DNA of 64,000 nt from Roseateles asaccharophilus. Its GTDB lineage: Bacteria > Pseudomonadota > Gammaproteobacteria > Burkholderiales > Burkholderiaceae_C. The stretch covers positions 161,964 through 225,963 of the forward strand of contig NZ_SNXE01000004.1 in assembly GCF_004362405.1 (NCBI RefSeq), written 5' to 3'. Below are positions 24,299 to 31,242 of this stretch, piece by piece (the stretch's first letter is position 1; every line of letters starts with the position of its first letter). The translations under genes and the position numbers were made by a program. A model generated the notes under the pieces. The model saw nothing but the letters and a program-made list of their open reading frames with translations, ran no database searches and was not told the origin of the DNA.

Positions 24299-25057
24299 AT
24301 GAACGTCGCCATCGCCACGCCCGTCCATATCGCTATCGTTGATGATGAAGCCGATATCCGTCAGCTGCTGGGCGCCTACCTGGTCCCGCAGGGCTTTCGG
24401 GTCACGCCCCTGGCCACCGGGCGCGAGCTGCTGGCCCTGATGCACCGCGACGCGCCGCAGCTGGTGCTGCTGGATCTGGGCCTGCCCGGTGAGGATGGCT
24501 TTGCGATTGCGCGACAGCTGCGCGAGCACTGGCACTGCGGTCTGCTCATCGTCACCGGCCGCGGCGACCCGATTGACAAGGTCGTGGGCCTGGAAGTCGG
24601 GGCGGACGACTATGTCACCAAGCCCTTCGATCTGCGCGAGCTGCTCGCCCGCATCAAGGCCGTGTTGCGCCGCCTCCAGCCGGCGCAGGCCGGCGCCAGC
24701 AGCAAGGCCCAGCCCGAGACGACGCTCCCCCAGGAGCGCTACCGCTTCATGGACTGGCAGCTCGATGCCGGCGCCCGGCGGCTGGAGCATGAGCGTGCCG
24801 GTCCGGTGGAGCTGACGGGCGGCGAATTCGACCTGCTGACCGTGTTTCTGCGGCATGCCGGGCGGGTGCTCTCACGCGAATTCCTGCTGGAGCAGACGCG
24901 CGGCCGCGAAGCCGGCCCCTATGACCGCACCATTGATGTCCAGGTCGGGCGCCTGCGCCGCAAGCTGCAGGCTTGCATGCCCGAGCAGGCGGCCGAACTC
25001 ATACGCGCGGTGCGAGGTGCCGGCTACCAGCTGGTGGCCCTGGTGGAACGTCAATGA
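24299..25057 (+). CDS. OmpR-family response regulator
   Basis: The 252-residue regulator has a receiver domain (IAIVDDEADIRQLLGAYLVP with the acidic pair, LVLLDLGLPGEDG with the phosphoacceptor Asp, YVTKPFDLRELLARI with the Lys) and a winged-helix output domain (ELTGGEFDLLTVFLRHAG, then DRTIDVQVGRLRRKL). Two nearby starts are possible, ATG 24290 and ATG 24299. I chose 24299 because a GACAAT hexamer sits seven bases before it, but 24290 is nearly as good. It overlaps the hybrid kinase by 4 bases, so the two should form a signalling pair. Confidence 0.88.
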   Translation: MNVAIATPVHIAIVDDEADIRQLLGAYLVPQGFRVTPLATGRELLALMHRDAPQLVLLDLGLPGEDGFAIARQLREHWHCGLLIVTGRGDPIDKVVGLEVGADDYVTKPFDLRELLARIKAVLRRLQPAQAGASSKAQPETTLPQERYRFMDWQLDAGARRLEHERAGPVELTGGEFDLLTVFLRHAGRVLSREFLLEQTRGREAGPYDRTIDVQVGRLRRKLQACMPEQAAELIRAVRGAGYQLVALVERQ

Positions 25058-27132
25058 GCGGCAGCGTCCCTGCGCCGTCGCAAGCAGAGATGGCGGCGCC
25101 CAACCTTTTCAGCTCGCTCTTCAGTGCCTACCCGGACGCCCTGCTCCTGGTGGACTTCGCCGGGCTGATCGTGCAGGCCAACCCGGCGGCCGAACGCTTG
25201 CTGGGCTACGAGCCCGGCGCCTTGCTCGGTGAAGCGGTGGATGCACTGGTGCCCGACAGCATACGGCCACGCCACGCCGCCTACCGCGACGACTATGCGC
25301 GCAATCCGCGTCCGCGGCCCATGGGCACGCAGATGGAGCTGGTGGCCCGGCGGCGCGACGGCTCCGAGGTCATGGTGGAGATCGCCCTGAGCCCCTTGCA
25401 GGACCGGGGACTGCCCTTTGTGGTCGCGGCCATCCGCGACATCAGCGCCTATCCGCGCATGCGTCAAGCCTTGCAGCGCGCACGCTACGCGGAACAGGTG
25501 GCGCAGCTGGGCCGCCTGGCCGTGGACAGCCGCGACCCGGCAGCCCTTTTCCGCCAGGCGTCGCGCGCCGCCGCGCAGGCCCTGGAGGTTGAGCAGGCAC
25601 GGCTCTATCTGCTCGAAGCCGATGGTCGCAGCCTGCGCGTGGCGGGCGCAGCCGGCATGCTGGACCATGAGCATGCCGAGACCGAGGGGCAGGTCTTGCC
25701 CTGCCTGCCCGGTTCACCGCTTGCCTATCTGATGGCCCAGCAAAGGCCGACCGTGGTGCCAGACTACGCCAGCGAGCAGCGCTTCGAGGTGCCGCAGGCC
25801 TATCTGCGCGCCGGTCTGGTCAGCGCGCTGGGCACGCCCTTGCTGGATCAGGGGCGCTGCATTGGTGCGCTGGTCGTGCGCTCGCGCCAGCCCCAGCGCT
25901 TTGGCGACGATGAGCTGCGCTTTCTGGAGTCCATCGGCAATCTGCTCTCCACCATCCTGCAGCGCGCCCAGGGCGAGGAGGCGCTGCGACACGCCCAGCG
26001 CCTGGAGACTGTGGGCCAGCTGACCGGCGGCATTGCCCACGATTTCAACAATCTGCTCACCGTGATCCAGGGCAATCTTCAGGTCCTGGAAGAACTGCCC
26101 GCCGTGGCGGGTGATGCCGCAGCCCCGCCCATGGTGGCAGCCGCCATGCGCGCCACGCGCCGGGGCGCCGAACTCACGGGCAAGCTGCTGGCCTTCTCAC
26201 GGCGCCAGCTGCTCCAGCCCAGCCGGGTCGAGATTGCGGGGCTGCTGGCGTCCCTGGCCGGCATGCTCAGGCGCACCCTGGACCAGCGCATACACATCGA
26301 GGACGACGTTGCCCCCGACTGCCCGGCCCTGCTGGCCGATGCGGGCCAGCTGGAGTCGGCCCTGCTCAATATCGCGATCAATGCCCGCGACGCCATGCCG
26401 GAGGGCGGACGCCTGCGCTTTCGCGCCTGGCGCTATGACCGCCTGCCCCCGGACCTGCTGACGGAGCTCCCCCCCAGCGCCCTGCCCCTGCTGGCGATTG
26501 CGGTGAGCGACAGCGGCGCCGGCATGCCCGAGGCGGTGCGCAGACGCGCTTTCGAGCCCTTTTTCACCACCAAGGAGGCCGGCCGCGGCACGGGACTGGG
26601 GCTGTCTACCGTCTACGGCTTCGTCAAGCAGTCGCAGGGGGCCATCCGCCTGGACAGCAGTCCCGGTCAGGGCACCACGGTCACCCTCTACTTTCCGGCC
26701 GCGCCCCAAGGCGCCCACAGGGGTCAGGAGCAGGGGGAAGCGGGCGTACACGCGCCACCACCGGGCCTGCGCGTTCTGCTGGTGGAGGACGAGGCCGAGG
26801 TGCGTGCGGTGCTGCTCAACTTCCTGCAGGCCTGGGGCTGCGAGATCAGGGTCTGCAGCCACGCCGAGGCCGCCCTGGCTGCCCTGGCGGAGCCTGGGGC
26901 GGACTTCGATCTCTTGCTGACCGATGTGATGCTGAGCAGTGGCCTGCGGGGCACCGAACTGGCCGCGAAGGTGCGGCACCAGCATCCCGCGGTGGCCGTG
27001 CTGCTGATGTCGGGCTATGCCGCCGATCTGCTGACGGCCGAGCTGCCGGTGCTGCGTGAGCTGCCGCTGCTGCGCAAGCCCTTCAGCCGCGAGCAGCTGG
27101 CCAGCGCCATGGCCCAGGCCCTAGAGGCCTGA
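25054..27132 (+). CDS. Hybrid histidine kinase (PAS-GAF-HisKA-HATPase-receiver)
   Basis: The 692-residue protein has no obvious membrane helix, so it is probably a soluble sensor. A PAS domain covers about 20-130 (ALLLVDFAGLIVQANPAAER), and a GAF domain about 150-310 (LEVEQARLYLLEADGRSLRV). The HisKA helix has the phospho-His in GGIAHDFNNLLTVIQGN; the ATPase domain contains NIAINARDAMPEGG and GTGLGLSTVYGFVKQSQG. A C-terminal receiver follows (LRVLLVEDEAEVRAVLLNFL, phosphoacceptor Asp in LLLTDVMLS, LRKPFSREQL). With the adjacent DNA-binding regulator it forms a three-module relay. The signal is unknown; PAS and GAF could bind a cofactor or small ligand. Confidence 0.9.
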   Translation: MSGSVPAPSQAEMAAPNLFSSLFSAYPDALLLVDFAGLIVQANPAAERLLGYEPGALLGEAVDALVPDSIRPRHAAYRDDYARNPRPRPMGTQMELVARRRDGSEVMVEIALSPLQDRGLPFVVAAIRDISAYPRMRQALQRARYAEQVAQLGRLAVDSRDPAALFRQASRAAAQALEVEQARLYLLEADGRSLRVAGAAGMLDHEHAETEGQVLPCLPGSPLAYLMAQQRPTVVPDYASEQRFEVPQAYLRAGLVSALGTPLLDQGRCIGALVVRSRQPQRFGDDELRFLESIGNLLSTILQRAQGEEALRHAQRLETVGQLTGGIAHDFNNLLTVIQGNLQVLEELPAVAGDAAAPPMVAAAMRATRRGAELTGKLLAFSRRQLLQPSRVEIAGLLASLAGMLRRTLDQRIHIEDDVAPDCPALLADAGQLESALLNIAINARDAMPEGGRLRFRAWRYDRLPPDLLTELPPSALPLLAIAVSDSGAGMPEAVRRRAFEPFFTTKEAGRGTGLGLSTVYGFVKQSQGAIRLDSSPGQGTTVTLYFPAAPQGAHRGQEQGEAGVHAPPPGLRVLLVEDEAEVRAVLLNFLQAWGCEIRVCSHAEAALAALAEPGADFDLLLTDVMLSSGLRGTELAAKVRHQHPAVAVLLMSGYAADLLTAELPVLRELPLLRKPFSREQLASAMAQALEA

Positions 27133-27145
27133 GGCGGAATCACCC

Positions 27146-27910
27146 TCACTGCAGGGTGCGGCCGGCGGCCGAGCCGCCCTGCACAAAGGCCGCCAGGGCG
27201 CCGAGCTCCGGAATCTCGATATCGCGCCGCCCCTTCTCGGCAAAGCGGATCAGATGCCGGGCCGACAGCCGCGACAGCGCCCGGCTCACGGACTCGATGG
27301 TCATGCCCAGATAGTTGCCAATCTCGGCCCGGCTCATGCGCAGGCTGATCTGGTCCGCCCGCAGTCCGCGCCGGGCCAGCGAGTCGGCCCAGTAGTGTAG
27401 AAAGTCCGCCACGCGGGCATCGGCCGACAGTGTGCACAGGGACAGCAGGGCATCGCGGTCGCGGACGATCTCCCGGCTCATGGCTTCGTGCACCAGGGCC
27501 AGCAGGCGAGGCTGCGTCAGACTGGCCTGCAACAAGGCCTCGTAGCTGAAGCTCCAGATCTCACCCGTATCCATGGCCACCGCGTCGCAGCCGTGACGCC
27601 CCTGGGCAATGCCATCGAAGCCCAGCCAGTCACCCCGAAACTGCAGGGCCACCACCTGTTCCCGACCATCGCTGGCACTGTTGATCAGCTTGAAGAATCC
27701 GGCGTTGACCAGATGCAGGCGTTGGAATCCCTCGCCCGCCTGGTAGATCAGATCTCCGGCATGGACCACCCGCCGCTGCAGCGGAACATGGGAAGCAACC
27801 AGTTCCAGCATGCTGCCAATGCGCTGAGCCTCGTTGGCGGGCGACCCGACGGCGCGGTCGTGAGCGGCGACCTTGGCTGAGCTGGGAATAGACGCGCTGC
27901 GGGTTTGCAT
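27146..27910 (-). CDS. Crp/Fnr family transcriptional regulator
   Basis: The 254-residue regulator has a cyclic-nucleotide-binding-like domain (VVHAGDLIYQAGEGFQRLHL, then GRHGCDAVAMDTGEIWSF) and a C-terminal helix-turn-helix (MSRAEIGNYLGMTIESVSRA, then LSRLSARHLI). The recognition helix resembles that of Fnr. The N-terminal Cys cluster that binds Fe-S in true Fnr is absent, so oxygen sensing by that route is unlikely. The ATG at 27910 follows AGGAG by five bases; the longer frame to 27943 lacks this. An inverted repeat lies 26-56 bases upstream and may be its own operator. Confidence 0.88.
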   Translation of the reverse strand: MQTRSASIPSSAKVAAHDRAVGSPANEAQRIGSMLELVASHVPLQRRVVHAGDLIYQAGEGFQRLHLVNAGFFKLINSASDGREQVVALQFRGDWLGFDGIAQGRHGCDAVAMDTGEIWSFSYEALLQASLTQPRLLALVHEAMSREIVRDRDALLSLCTLSADARVADFLHYWADSLARRGLRADQISLRMSRAEIGNYLGMTIESVSRALSRLSARHLIRFAEKGRRDIEIPELGALAAFVQGGSAAGRTLQ

Positions 27911-27966: not shown

Positions 27967-28107
27967 TCGGCTGAGGAACCGGTCATGACCAAGTGAAATC
28001 GACCATGTCATTTTGTAAATGGATGGTGAACGGCGCGCACTGCGCATCGGGCGCTTGACCTGCCGCAAAGGCCGGATCGCAAAGCGCTCTAGGCTCGCCC
28101 TCCGAGC

Positions 28108-28620
28108 ATGTATTCCGCCGCCCTTCCCCTCCCCGAAAGCAGCACCGAGCTTCTGTCGCCAAGCCGGTGTCAGGCCTTGCTGCAGCTTGCCCAGAGCCTG
28201 GACCGGGGCGCGGTGTTCTCGCGCCTTCAGGGGCGCAATATCGCCCTGCTCTGCCTGCAGCCGGATGAGGCTGCGCTCGCGAGCCTGGAGGAGGCGGCAT
28301 CCAGCCTGGGCGCACGTCTGGCCCGCCTGGATGCACAGAGCTGGCTGGAAGACAGCGCGGACAGTCCGGCGCTGCTGCGCATGCTGGAGCGCCTGTATGA
28401 CGCTGTGGACTGCGAAGGGCTGCCGGCCGAGCGCGCCCAGGCCTTGCAGCGCCAATGTGCCCTGCCCGTCCTGGTCAATCTGTCCCAGACCCAGCTGGCC
28501 GTGAAGGCGCTGGCGCCCCAGCTGCGCGCGCTGCGTTCGCCCGAGGCCCACCCCGCCAGCCTGGCCGAGGAGGAAGTGCTGCTGGTGCAGGCCCTCCTGG
28601 TCAGCAGCCTGGGCGCCTGA
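28108..28620 (+). CDS. Orphan protein resembling a degenerate ornithine carbamoyltransferase N-terminal domain
   Basis: The 170-residue cytoplasmic protein can be laid along the carbamoyl-phosphate domain of ornithine carbamoyltransferase (ArgF/ArgI). ALLQLAQSL matches the first helix and LQGRNIALL the first strand. LEEAASSLGARLARLDAQSW matches the region after the active-site helix, and LRMLERLYDAVDCEGLPAER matches the conserved VLGRMYDGI...RG segment; LPVLVNLSQTQ matches VPVWNGLT...PTQ. The carbamoyl-phosphate motif STRTR is missing (LQPDEA in its place), the HPTQ site is only partly kept, and the ornithine domain is absent. It should not be a working transferase. It is divergent from a Crp/Fnr gene. 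The homology is my alignment by eye. Confidence 0.6.
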   Translation: MYSAALPLPESSTELLSPSRCQALLQLAQSLDRGAVFSRLQGRNIALLCLQPDEAALASLEEAASSLGARLARLDAQSWLEDSADSPALLRMLERLYDAVDCEGLPAERAQALQRQCALPVLVNLSQTQLAVKALAPQLRALRSPEAHPASLAEEEVLLVQALLVSSLGA

Positions 28621-28708: not shown

Positions 28709-29395
28709 ATGAAGCTCTTGTTGATCGAGGATGAACCCAAGCTGGCCGAGTATCTGCGCAAGGGCTTGAGCGAGGAAGGCTTCAGCGTGGAGCTAGCGCT
28801 CAACGGCATCGATGGCCTGCACCTGGCCACCCAGGGTCAGCATGATCTGATCGTGCTGGACGGCATGCTGCCGGGCATTGACGGCCTGGCCGTGCTGGCC
28901 GCGCTGCGCCAGAGCCGCAACACCCCGGTGCTGATGCTCACCGCCCGCACCCAGGTGGAAGACCGGGTGCGTGGCCTGCAGGCCGGGGCCGACGACTATG
29001 TGCTCAAGCCCTTCGCCTTCTCTGAGCTGCTGGCCCGCATCCAGGGCTTGCTGCGGCGGGCCCAGGGCGCGCGCAGCAGCGGCGAAGTCACACAGCTGCG
29101 CCTGGGTGAGCTGGAGATGGACCTGATCCGACGACGCGCCCAGCGTGCCGGGCAGCGCCTGGACCTCACCGCCAAGGAATTCAATCTGCTGAGCCTGCTG
29201 CTGCGGCGTCAGGGCGAGGTGCTGTCCCGCACCGAACTGGCCGAGCAGGTCTGGGACATGAATTTCGACAGCGAGACCAATGTGGTGGAGGTGGCCATAC
29301 GGCGCCTGCGCAGCAAGCTGGACCAGCCCTTTGAGCGGCCCCTGCTGCACACGGTTCGCGGCATGGGCTATGTGCTGGAGGACCGCGGGGCATGA
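28709..29395 (+). CDS. Heavy-metal response regulator, CopR/CusR type
   Basis: The 228-residue OmpR-family regulator has a receiver domain (LLLIEDEPKLAEYLRKGLSE, phosphoacceptor Asp in LIVLDGMLPGIDG, Lys in LKPFAFSELLARI) and a winged helix ending in FERPLLHTVRGMGYVLEDRG. EDEPKLAEYLRKGLSEEGF and FDSETNVVEVAIRRLRSKLD are characteristic of the CopR/CusR/PcoR group. It is followed, with a 4-base overlap, by a matching sensor kinase and then by copper-handling genes, so copper is the likely signal. A CACAAT hexamer six bases before the ATG and the palindrome further upstream suggest autoregulation. Confidence 0.9.
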   Translation: MKLLLIEDEPKLAEYLRKGLSEEGFSVELALNGIDGLHLATQGQHDLIVLDGMLPGIDGLAVLAALRQSRNTPVLMLTARTQVEDRVRGLQAGADDYVLKPFAFSELLARIQGLLRRAQGARSSGEVTQLRLGELEMDLIRRRAQRAGQRLDLTAKEFNLLSLLLRRQGEVLSRTELAEQVWDMNFDSETNVVEVAIRRLRSKLDQPFERPLLHTVRGMGYVLEDRGA

Positions 29396-30777
29396 GCCAG
29401 CCGCAGGCCGTCCGCTCACGCGGCGCGGATCTGGGCTTGCGCCTGTCGCGCTGGCTGGCGCTGCTGAGCATCCTCGGCCTGGGCCTGCTGTGCAGCGGCA
29501 TCTACCTGGCCCTGGCCCTGACCCTGAACCAGCGCCAGACCCAGACCCTGGACCAGAAGCAGCAGGCGGTTCAGCAGCTGCTCGCCGAGCGCCGACCGGC
29601 CCCCCAACGCGACGAGCAGCTGCGCGACCTGCTGGCCGGTCATAACGAGTTGAGCCTCAGCCTGCACGACAAGCAGGGCCTGCCGCAGTTTTCATCCAAA
29701 CCGGCCACGCAGGCGCAGCCGGGCAAGACCCGGCACTTCCAGGCCGCATCACCCGCAGGTGAATCCGGCCCGCTGCAAGCCCGGCTGAGCCTGGACACCC
29801 GGGCCGATGCGGCCCTGCTCAGGCGCATGGCCCAGATCCTGGCACTGAGCGCCCTGGCGGGCGTGCTGCTGATCTCCGCCGGTGCCTTTGTCCTGGTGCG
29901 GCGTGGCCTGGCGCCGCTGCGCCTGCTGGGGGCCCAGATGCAGCAGCTGGGGGGCCATGCACTGGAGCGTCGCCTGGACGGGAGCGGACAGCCCCGCGAG
30001 CTGCAGCCCCTGGTGGCCCAGTTCAATGCCCTGCTGGACCGCCTGGCTGCCAGCTACCGGCAGATGGAGGCCTTCAACGCCGATGTGGCCCATGAGCTCA
30101 ACACCCCGCTGGCCACCCTGATCAGCAGCTGCGAGCTGGCCCTGCGCAGGCGGCGCCAGGACCCGGAGCTGCAGGACTTGCTGGGCTCCAATCTGGAAGA
30201 GCTGCACCGCTTGGCCGGCATCGTGGCCGACATGCTCTTTCTCTCCCACGCCGACCGAGGGCGCGCCGCCAGGCGCGAACCGCTGGCCAGCGTGGCGGCC
30301 CTGGCTCGGGAGGTGCTGGACTTCCACGAGGCGGCCTTGCTGGAGGCGGGCCTGCAGGCCCAGGTCTGTGGCGACGCCAGCGCCGCCCTCGATCCCGGCT
30401 TGCTGCGTCGGGCCCTGTCCAATCTGCTGGGCAATGCCACGCGCTATGCCTATCGCGGCAGCATGCTGCAGCTGCTGATCCAGACCGAGCCAGGGGATCA
30501 GCTGCGGCTTGCGGTGCTCAACGAGGGCCCGGAGATCGCGGCCGTGCACCTGCCACGCCTCTTTGACCGCTTCTACCGCGCCGACCCCGCGCGCAGCCAG
30601 GCCGACCGCAATCATGGGCTGGGCCTGGCCATCGTGGCCGCCATCGCGCGCATGCATGGTGGTCAGCCCTATGCGCAATCGGCCCCGGGGCACAGCTGCA
30701 TCGGACTGCTGCTGCCTCGCATGACACAAACGTCATCCGCGCGCCCGGCTTTCGACCCCTCGCCCTCCCTACAGTGA
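29392..30777 (+). CDS. Heavy-metal sensor histidine kinase, CopS/CusS type
   Basis: The 461-residue inner-membrane kinase has two membrane helices (WLALLSILGLGLLCSGIYLA near residue 25 and ALAGVLLISAGAFVLVRRGL near 160) around a periplasmic sensor loop. A HAMP segment follows (LRLLGAQMQQLGGHALERRL), then HisKA with the phospho-His in VAHELNTPLATLISSCELAL, and an ATPase domain (LLGNATRYAY, NHGLGLAIVAAIARMHGG). The last two blocks are typical of the CusS/CopS heavy-metal group. It overlaps the regulator by 4 bases. A second TGAC-N6-GTCA box lies within its last codons and should control the next gene. Confidence 0.9.
   Translation: MSQPQAVRSRGADLGLRLSRWLALLSILGLGLLCSGIYLALALTLNQRQTQTLDQKQQAVQQLLAERRPAPQRDEQLRDLLAGHNELSLSLHDKQGLPQFSSKPATQAQPGKTRHFQAASPAGESGPLQARLSLDTRADAALLRRMAQILALSALAGVLLISAGAFVLVRRGLAPLRLLGAQMQQLGGHALERRLDGSGQPRELQPLVAQFNALLDRLAASYRQMEAFNADVAHELNTPLATLISSCELALRRRRQDPELQDLLGSNLEELHRLAGIVADMLFLSHADRGRAARREPLASVAALAREVLDFHEAALLEAGLQAQVCGDASAALDPGLLRRALSNLLGNATRYAYRGSMLQLLIQTEPGDQLRLAVLNEGPEIAAVHLPRLFDRFYRADPARSQADRNHGLGLAIVAAIARMHGGQPYAQSAPGHSCIGLLLPRMTQTSSARPAFDPSPSLQ
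30721..30736. promoter_or_regulatory. Second CusR/CopR-type box, before the copper effector genes
   Basis: ATGACACAAACGTCAT has the same TGAC-N6-GTCA form as the box at 28659 and lies in the 3' end of the sensor gene. A TACAGT hexamer follows at 30770-30775, which would place a start of transcription near 30782, about 53 bases from the box centre. Confidence 0.6.
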
Positions 30778-30781
30778 AGCC

Positions 30782-30850
30782 ATGGTGCTCAGCACGAGCC
30801 CCATGTTCCGAGACAAGCAAGCACTGGAGGTCATATGTTCCGTACCCTGA
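30782..30850 (+). other. Possible 22-residue leader reading frame overlapping the next gene
   Basis: An ATG six bases after TACAGT opens a frame of 22 codons that ends TGA at 30850, running 16 bases into the DUF4148 gene in another frame. Its position at the predicted transcript start suggests a leader peptide coupled to the next gene. There is no evidence that it is translated. Confidence 0.25.
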
Positions 30851-31242
30851 CTCTGAGCCTGGCCCTGCTGGGCGCAAGCGCACTGCCCGCCCTGGCCCAT
30901 CCCCTGAGCCAGACCAACGAGGGGGCTCGCAGCCGCGCCGAAGTCCTGGCCGAGCTGGACGCCGCCCGCCGTGACGGCAGCCTGGCTCGCATGAACCGCG
31001 AAGGCGGCCACGCACCCGAGTACGAGCAGCGCGGCAGCCGCACGCGCGATGAGGTGCTGGCCGAGCTGGACGTGGCGCGCCGCAGCGGCGATATGGCCCG
31101 CCTCAATCGCGAGAGCGGCCTGCCCCTCGAGCCCTTGCCGCTCGGCCAGTCGCTCAGCCGCGCCGAGGTGCTGGCCGAGCTGGAACACGCCCGCACGGAC
31201 GGCAGCATGCGCTGCAGCCTGGGCAATCGCGGCAGCTGCTGA
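30835..31242 (+). CDS. DUF4148 repeat protein, exported
   Basis: The 135-residue protein has a signal peptide (LTLSLALLGASALPALAHP) and three tandem copies of a DUF4148-like unit of about 40 residues. Each carries R-x-E/D-V-L-A-E-L-[DE]-x-A-R near its start: SRAEVLAELDAARRDGSLAR, TRDEVLAELDVARRSGDMAR and SRAEVLAELEHARTDGSM. DUF4148 proteins are common and unexplained in Burkholderiales. Here the gene is the first after the copper two-component box, preceded by GGAGG four bases before the ATG, so it is probably copper-induced. It may be a periplasmic structural or binding factor; no catalytic residues are visible. Confidence 0.8.
   Translation: MFRTLTLSLALLGASALPALAHPLSQTNEGARSRAEVLAELDAARRDGSLARMNREGGHAPEYEQRGSRTRDEVLAELDVARRSGDMARLNRESGLPLEPLPLGQSLSRAEVLAELEHARTDGSMRCSLGNRGSC

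Follow-up and report, generated by a model that had tools for sequence, protein, structure and literature searches.

A transcarbamylase-like gene and its surroundings

On the forward strand of the window (the whole stretch of DNA analysed, 64,000 nucleotides), positions 28108..28620 hold an ATG-started gene for a protein of 170 aa, here called pseudo-OTC, which is related to the ornithine carbamoyltransferase (OTC) ArcB. The protein appears to consist of the carbamoyl-phosphate (CP) domain of the enzyme plus a C-terminal helix, and the catalytic motifs are absent. Upstream lie an OmpR-type response regulator (24299..25057, forward strand), which belongs to a conserved gene set described below, a hybrid histidine kinase with the domains PAS-GAF-HisKA-HATPase-REC (25054..27132, forward strand), and a divergent regulator of the Crp/Fnr family (27146..27910, reverse strand). 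A degenerate FNR/FixK-type box, TTGACctgcCGCAA, is found at 28055..28068 on the forward strand. Directly downstream, 28709-30777 holds the genes for another OmpR regulator and for a histidine kinase with a HAMP domain, after which a DUF4148 protein is encoded at 30835-31242. The opposite strand of 28108-28620 gave no Pfam matches.

The stretch matching the OTC CP domain spans 28153..28524 on the forward strand (residues 16-139), as delimited by the Pfam, PDB, NCBIfam and family-profile match ranges. The earlier note had recognized this domain by eye, and the profile search bore it out: the Pfam model OTCace_N matched the window protein with E 9.4e-5 and 23.0 bits, below its curated cut-off of 29.9, and four NCBIfam OTC models, each scoring well short of its cut-off, matched with E 3.4e-6 to 5.4e-5. 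Among PDB sequences, the OTCs 9y83 (E 9.4e-6), 2ef0 (1.9e-5) and 1akm (3.2e-5) were retrieved. A joint profile of 54 short relatives had as its best PDB match 1dxh (E 1.8e-35), annotated in the PDB as an OTC, which we take to be the P. aeruginosa catabolic enzyme, ArcB; 1dxh is also given as the catabolic OTC of P. aeruginosa in PMC4581275. At E <= 1e-3, 51 of the 54 short relatives matched OTCace_N and all 54 an NCBIfam OTC model. On sequence grounds, the homology of the window protein to the OTC CP domain is beyond chance. An AlphaFold model of the window protein, built from a three-sequence alignment, had a mean pLDDT of 42.

Distribution and conserved gene neighbourhood

We surveyed 399 genomes of the window's family with a profile that sets a high-scoring group apart from ordinary ArgF. 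In all, 88 loci had a match, 80 of which were fetched as stretches; forms with neither STRT nor HCLP were classed as dead and those with both as ArcB, giving 71 dead and 17 ArcB loci. The window gene had been described as an orphan; on the contrary, dead paralogs occur in at least 64 of the 399 family genomes, in 28 genera, a lower bound that leaves out G242:C1, G373:C21, G290:C2, G376:C177, G216:C7, G088:C3 and G199:C1:6272898. The dead loci also include one in a Variovorax and one on an unplaced Burkholderiales contig. Most dead forms are short (56 have 142-182 aa), eleven have 234-271 aa, and two, L098 and L103, are full-length forms of 311 and 334 aa; the remaining rows are one of 574 aa with a mis-called start and one 128-aa piece. 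A typical short dead form has about 165 aa, against about 332 aa in ArcB. Six genomes carry two dead paralogs each, namely G032 (L016, L017), G072 (L069, L073), G223 (L091, L105), G270 (L080), G316 (L109, L116) and G337 (L087, L104), a pairing not obviously needed by a mere relic. A match in G054 (L006, L019) contained no ORF resembling OTC, and we regard it as a chance hit.

Beyond the family we searched 399 genomes of the order, some of them from the window's own family, and 274 of the class, with cut-offs of 1e-14 and 1e-20 at which very diverged short forms could escape. The frames among the matches listed were at least 295 aa long (the 295-aa frame of G848 was taken by length alone), with the exception of a 275-aa frame in G587 that holds L155, an intermediate of 246 aa. 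L155, from another family of the order, is sister to L086 of G125 with support 100, a possible case of horizontal transfer. No relatives of pseudo-OTC were found in the plasmids and viral contigs searched. Neither Pfam nor NCBIfam has a dedicated family for these proteins; they match general transcarbamylase models only and could therefore be wrongly named or overlooked. Among the papers listed in searches of the open-licence PMC literature, none dealt with such a protein in its title or the opening of its abstract.

The neighbouring genes of the relatives, as well as arcA and arcD, were located by sequence search. The divergent Crp/Fnr neighbour, which the earlier note had picked out, proved to be conserved: an Fnr-like gene lies divergently within 700 bp at 53 of 71 dead loci and at 0 of 17 ArcB loci. 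The kinase is present in the fetched stretch of 59 of 71 dead loci and only two of 17 ArcB loci, L090 and L093, and the regulator in 54 of 71 and one of 17, respectively. At least one of the three genes accompanies 67 of the 71 dead paralogs; none was found at L061 (a 3.3-kb contig), L070, L084 and L091. The kinase PAS domain matches FixL (1dp6, E 1.8e-15) and DosP, and the window kinase retains the PAS His, at a position that is presumably the proximal haem-binding one. The same His is present at all 55 loci with a residue there, two of which are ArcB loci, while six rows are gapped. The neighbouring kinase is thus likely a FixL-like haem-PAS protein. The window's Fnr-like protein has a recognition helix, EIGNYLGMTIESVS, that we take to be of Fnr type, and no Cys in its N-terminal region; the N-terminal cysteine cluster of Fe-S FNR is therefore absent from it. 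Counted over 55 residues that may begin before the true starts, 29 of the 50 readable Fnr-like neighbours (of 53) have no N-terminal Cys, 15 have one, five have two and one has three. FixK likewise lacks the cysteine cluster (PMC7888657).

The intergenic regions between dead paralogs and Fnr genes are enriched in the corresponding box. The strict form, TTGAY-N4-RTCAA, occurs in 38 of 53 such regions versus 32 of 334 that precede other genes of the same loci, and a match at 8 or more of 10 positions in 47 of 53 versus 75 of 334. The window's own box (TTGACCTGCCGCAA) is not strict; it agrees with the consensus at 7 of 10 positions, which is weak alone, and lies 39 bp upstream of the start codon, at the place where both congeners have boxes scoring 7 and 8 (38 bp upstream). 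For the family, control by an FNR/FixK-type regulator is moderately supported; the window gene, with its degenerate box, may share it. Other genes in the fetched stretches are those for universal stress proteins, for hemerythrin and for a PatZ-like enzyme, besides cbb3-related and further genes of this sort; they occur around 36 of the 71 dead paralogs and 4 of the 17 ArcB, with each family named from one representative. Universal stress protein genes alone occur in 21 of 71 dead-paralog stretches, a likeness to lxa, reportedly the low-oxygen-activated locus of Burkholderia cenocepacia, which is said to include such genes. Taken as a gene set, the pseudo-OTC locus is likely an oxygen-response locus.

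In the rhizobial hFixL-FxkR-FixK cascade, FxkR is a regulator of the OmpR type. The genes at 24299-27910 look like a betaproteobacterial counterpart of this cascade: they share with it a FixL-like PAS in a hybrid kinase, an OmpR-type regulator, and an Fnr-family regulator without the Cys cluster together with boxes of the TTGAT-N4-ATCAA type (PMC7888657). Unlike the rhizobial set, the window set is betaproteobacterial and its kinase has a GAF domain; a like order of signalling, with pseudo-OTC as a target, would be a prediction.

Descent, lost motifs and selection

A quick tree of 127 rows, in which long branches were flagged so that the inner branching is unsure, set ArgF apart (support 100) and nested the dead forms within catabolic ArcB. 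A clade of 70 rows (98) contains all dead forms plus two active ArcB, L090 and L093. Within this clade full-length dead L103 branches next (92), followed by a group of 66 rows that holds the short and intermediate forms (99). L098, which retains S-T-R of the motif, groups instead with active L090 and L093 (93), and is probably a separate, recent inactivation; the full-length step of the series is therefore represented by L103 alone, which has the kinase and the regulator at its locus but gave no Fnr match. Both the tree and the profile scores identify an ArcB-type OTC, and not ArgF, as the enzyme nearest to pseudo-OTC, which corrects the assignment to ArgF/ArgI in the earlier note. ArgF as the parent was ruled out on the same two grounds. 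In the window genome, OTCace_N matched ArgF (one copy only), ATCase, pseudo-OTC and one weak stretch of 34 positions; ArcB was absent among these matches, and no match to arginine deiminase (PF02274) was found.

The genes of L090 and L093 belong to arcD-arcA-arcB clusters that adjoin the kinase also seen at the dead loci, the L090 cluster with a divergent Fnr gene and the L093 cluster with the regulator. The arcD genes of both and the arcA of L093 were named by NCBIfam, and the L090 arcA is 94% identical to that of L093. Both arcD genes are preceded by TTGACGGGCATCAA, and the same 14 bases precede dead L098. No trace of arcA or arcD was found by sequence search in the fetched stretches of the 71 dead loci. 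Because the two arcDAB clusters share the kinase and the box, and arcA and arcD are gone at the dead loci, pseudo-OTC most likely inherited the place and the promoter of an arcDAB operon. One genome, G305, has both the arcDAB cluster of L093 and full-length dead L098, each by a kinase/regulator pair, perhaps as a duplicated locus.

Residues were compared across 66 dead paralogs of short or intermediate length, aligned with 43 ArcB and 16 ArgF; L098 and L103 were counted apart. The 66 rows differ from the 71 loci since alignment and tree do not include L072, whose start is fused, L120, which has an in-frame stop, and the short pieces L124 and L128, while L155 was added as an intermediate, and only one of the two paralogs of L080 was used. 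At the place of the enzyme's phosphate-binding STRTR loop the window protein reads LQPDEAAL (28255..28278, forward strand; residues 50-57), with D-E-A-A-L at residues 53-57 aligned to the motif itself, so that the replacement noted earlier is confirmed. The letters LQPDEA are not conserved among the relatives, as one might have expected from the earlier note; what is conserved is an acidic replacement of a basic loop, with a mean net charge of -2.3 in the 66 dead paralogs versus +2.0 in the 43 ArcB. STRT and HCLP were found in 0 of 71 dead forms. The S, T, R and T of SxRT are retained in 5, 2, 2 and 1 of 66 dead paralogs, and the Gln of HPxQ (LAVK in the window) in 4. By ArcB numbering, Gln84 is kept in 2 and Lys88 in 1, while Arg100, His135 and Arg319, which we take from E. 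coli OTC to be ligand positions, are kept in 53, 54 and 44. Of eleven ligand and motif positions tabulated, the window protein retains one alone, R95 (equivalent to Arg100), and lacks the His and Arg that most relatives retain.

Three positions have become fixed in a state unlike that of ArcB. Leu67 is found in 65 of 66 dead paralogs (Leu also occurs in about half of ArgF); Cys102 (28411..28413, forward strand) is Cys in 61 of 66 and Tyr in 98% of the 43 ArcB; and Gln161 is found in 65 of 66, with Lys in 43 of 43 ArcB and 16 of 16 ArgF. At position 49, 19 of the 66 have Ser, and Cys49 occurs together with Cys102 in 33.

The ornithine domain is absent from the window protein and the short forms. 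The protein had accordingly been read as half an enzyme, which holds in that only the CP domain of the two domains is present; what that reading missed is that the C-terminal helix appears to be retained. Residues 155-170 (28570..28617, forward strand), including Gln161, are by profile and alignment a likely remnant of this helix. HMMER aligned profile positions 148-166 to 1dxh residues 315-333, at -0.6 bits as a separate stretch, which is weak alone, and the same tail is present in the full-length and intermediate dead forms. Among the 54 short relatives, 27 tails score above the 95th percentile of their own shuffles and 35 above that of internal windows; half thus fail to beat their shuffles, and the window tail scores 7.1 bits. 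In transcarbamylases the two domains are linked by helices 5 and 12, and helix 1 crosses helix 12 (PMC4581275). Because the tail aligns with the last OTC helix, the ornithine domain seems to have been cut out from the middle, with the CP domain and the closing helix left over.

The dead paralogs evolve under purifying, though relaxed, selection. We estimated omega by NG86, which tends to understate dS; values ranged from 0.11 to 0.70 and were below 1 in 61 of 61 pairs, and third positions hold most changes in all 61. In the window's genus omega was 0.42-0.55 in pairwise alignment, versus 0.13-0.19 for the Fnr gene and 0.22-0.25 for the kinase. With the family alignment, the bootstrap medians for this genus were 0.53 (0.38-0.76), 0.67 (0.47-1.05) and 0.51 (0.35-0.80), and 8 of 200 replicates of the pair with median 0.67 were at or over 1. 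By these estimates, constraint in the window's genus is real but weak. The only inner stop among the paralog rows listed is an in-frame TAG in G230.

Possible roles and meaning

Compared with ArcB (1dxh and the Burkholderiales ArcB), pseudo-OTC shares the CP-domain sequence and the C-terminal helix, as well as the kinase and box common to two arcDAB clusters; unlike ArcB, it is without SxRT, HPxQ, HxLP and the ornithine domain. An ArcB-derived history of pseudo-OTC is well supported, and by its descent, its lost catalytic residues and the selection maintained on it, the window protein is predicted to be a pseudoenzyme from ArcB.

That it is retained in a non-catalytic binding or regulatory role is, in our judgement, somewhat probable. 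In the history we favour, an FNR box preceded an arcD-arcA-arcB cluster whose neighbours were a FixL-like kinase, an OmpR regulator and a divergent Fnr/FixK-like gene; the clusters of L090 and L093 still adjoin parts of this set. Later arcD and arcA disappeared, and arcB was stripped of its catalytic motifs and of the ornithine domain. What was left is a CP domain with the original C-terminal helix of the enzyme to close it, still preceded by an Fnr/FixK-type box. Such a protein would fold as a CP domain, be made at low oxygen, and probably still associate by the face with which CP domains form the trimer in OTC. It would work by binding and not by catalysis, with a second copy of itself, ArgF or some component of the low-oxygen response as its partner. 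More tentatively, the lone CP domain and helix may have been recruited, in one bacterial family, as a dedicated non-catalytic regulator of the haem-PAS/FixK-type oxygen response, with Cys102 and Gln161 serving a new partner or signal.

Alternatively, pseudo-OTC could be a functionless relic of arcDAB that decays slowly, its small size and an active promoter in front of it having kept it for long. The window genome, with neither a PF02274 match nor ArcB, would fit such a relic, as would the raised omega of the window's genus, the in-frame TAG in G230 and the shorter pieces L124 and L128. We nevertheless consider it unlikely, given that the listed paralogs other than that of G230 are free of inner stops, that dead paralogs occur in 28 genera, that omega is below 1 throughout, that residues are fixed which ArcB lacks, and that the neighbour genes and the box persist. 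The decaying gene proposed in the earlier note is thus improbable for the family, although slow decay may hold in the window's own lineage, where omega is raised and the box is degenerate.

A rather improbable alternative is that the protein assembles together with ArgF by way of the CP-domain interface and, when oxygen is low, reduces or diverts the carbamoylation of ornithine. The window genome has one ArgF, and in transcarbamylases the CP domains build the bottom of the trimer, with active sites between subunits (PMC4581275); the closest enzyme in the tree, however, is ArcB and not ArgF. Still harder to credit is a role as thiol or metal sensor, with Cys102 and often Cys49 acting at the edge of the former active site: the frequency of these cysteines and the likely oxygen-response setting would suit it, but position 49 is often Ser, and a buried Cys may be mere packing. 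Sensing of carbamoyl phosphate, as suggested in the earlier note, is very improbable, for although Arg100, His135 and Arg319 are mostly retained, the SxRT loop, the Gln of HPxQ, Gln84 and Lys88 are lost in nearly all 66 paralogs, the loop is acidic, and the window retains Arg100 alone.

That a carbamoyltransferase complex can include an inactive homologue of an enzyme has a precedent in the inactive dihydroorotase bound to some bacterial ATCases (PMC4581275). Unlike in pseudo-OTC, the inactive member there is a dihydroorotase and not a transcarbamylase, and the part of PMC4581275 drawn on here describes no domain deletion. The steps from the active enzyme to a protein of one domain can be read off the paralogs, since dead forms of full length and others with part of the sequence deleted lie in between, mostly at one conserved locus; this makes the question of relic or regulator testable for a pseudoenzyme. 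An oxygen cascade of the FixL/FixK kind in Burkholderiales is also suggested by the locus. In pseudo-OTC an enzyme seems to have lost half its body and its chemistry but may have gained another job.
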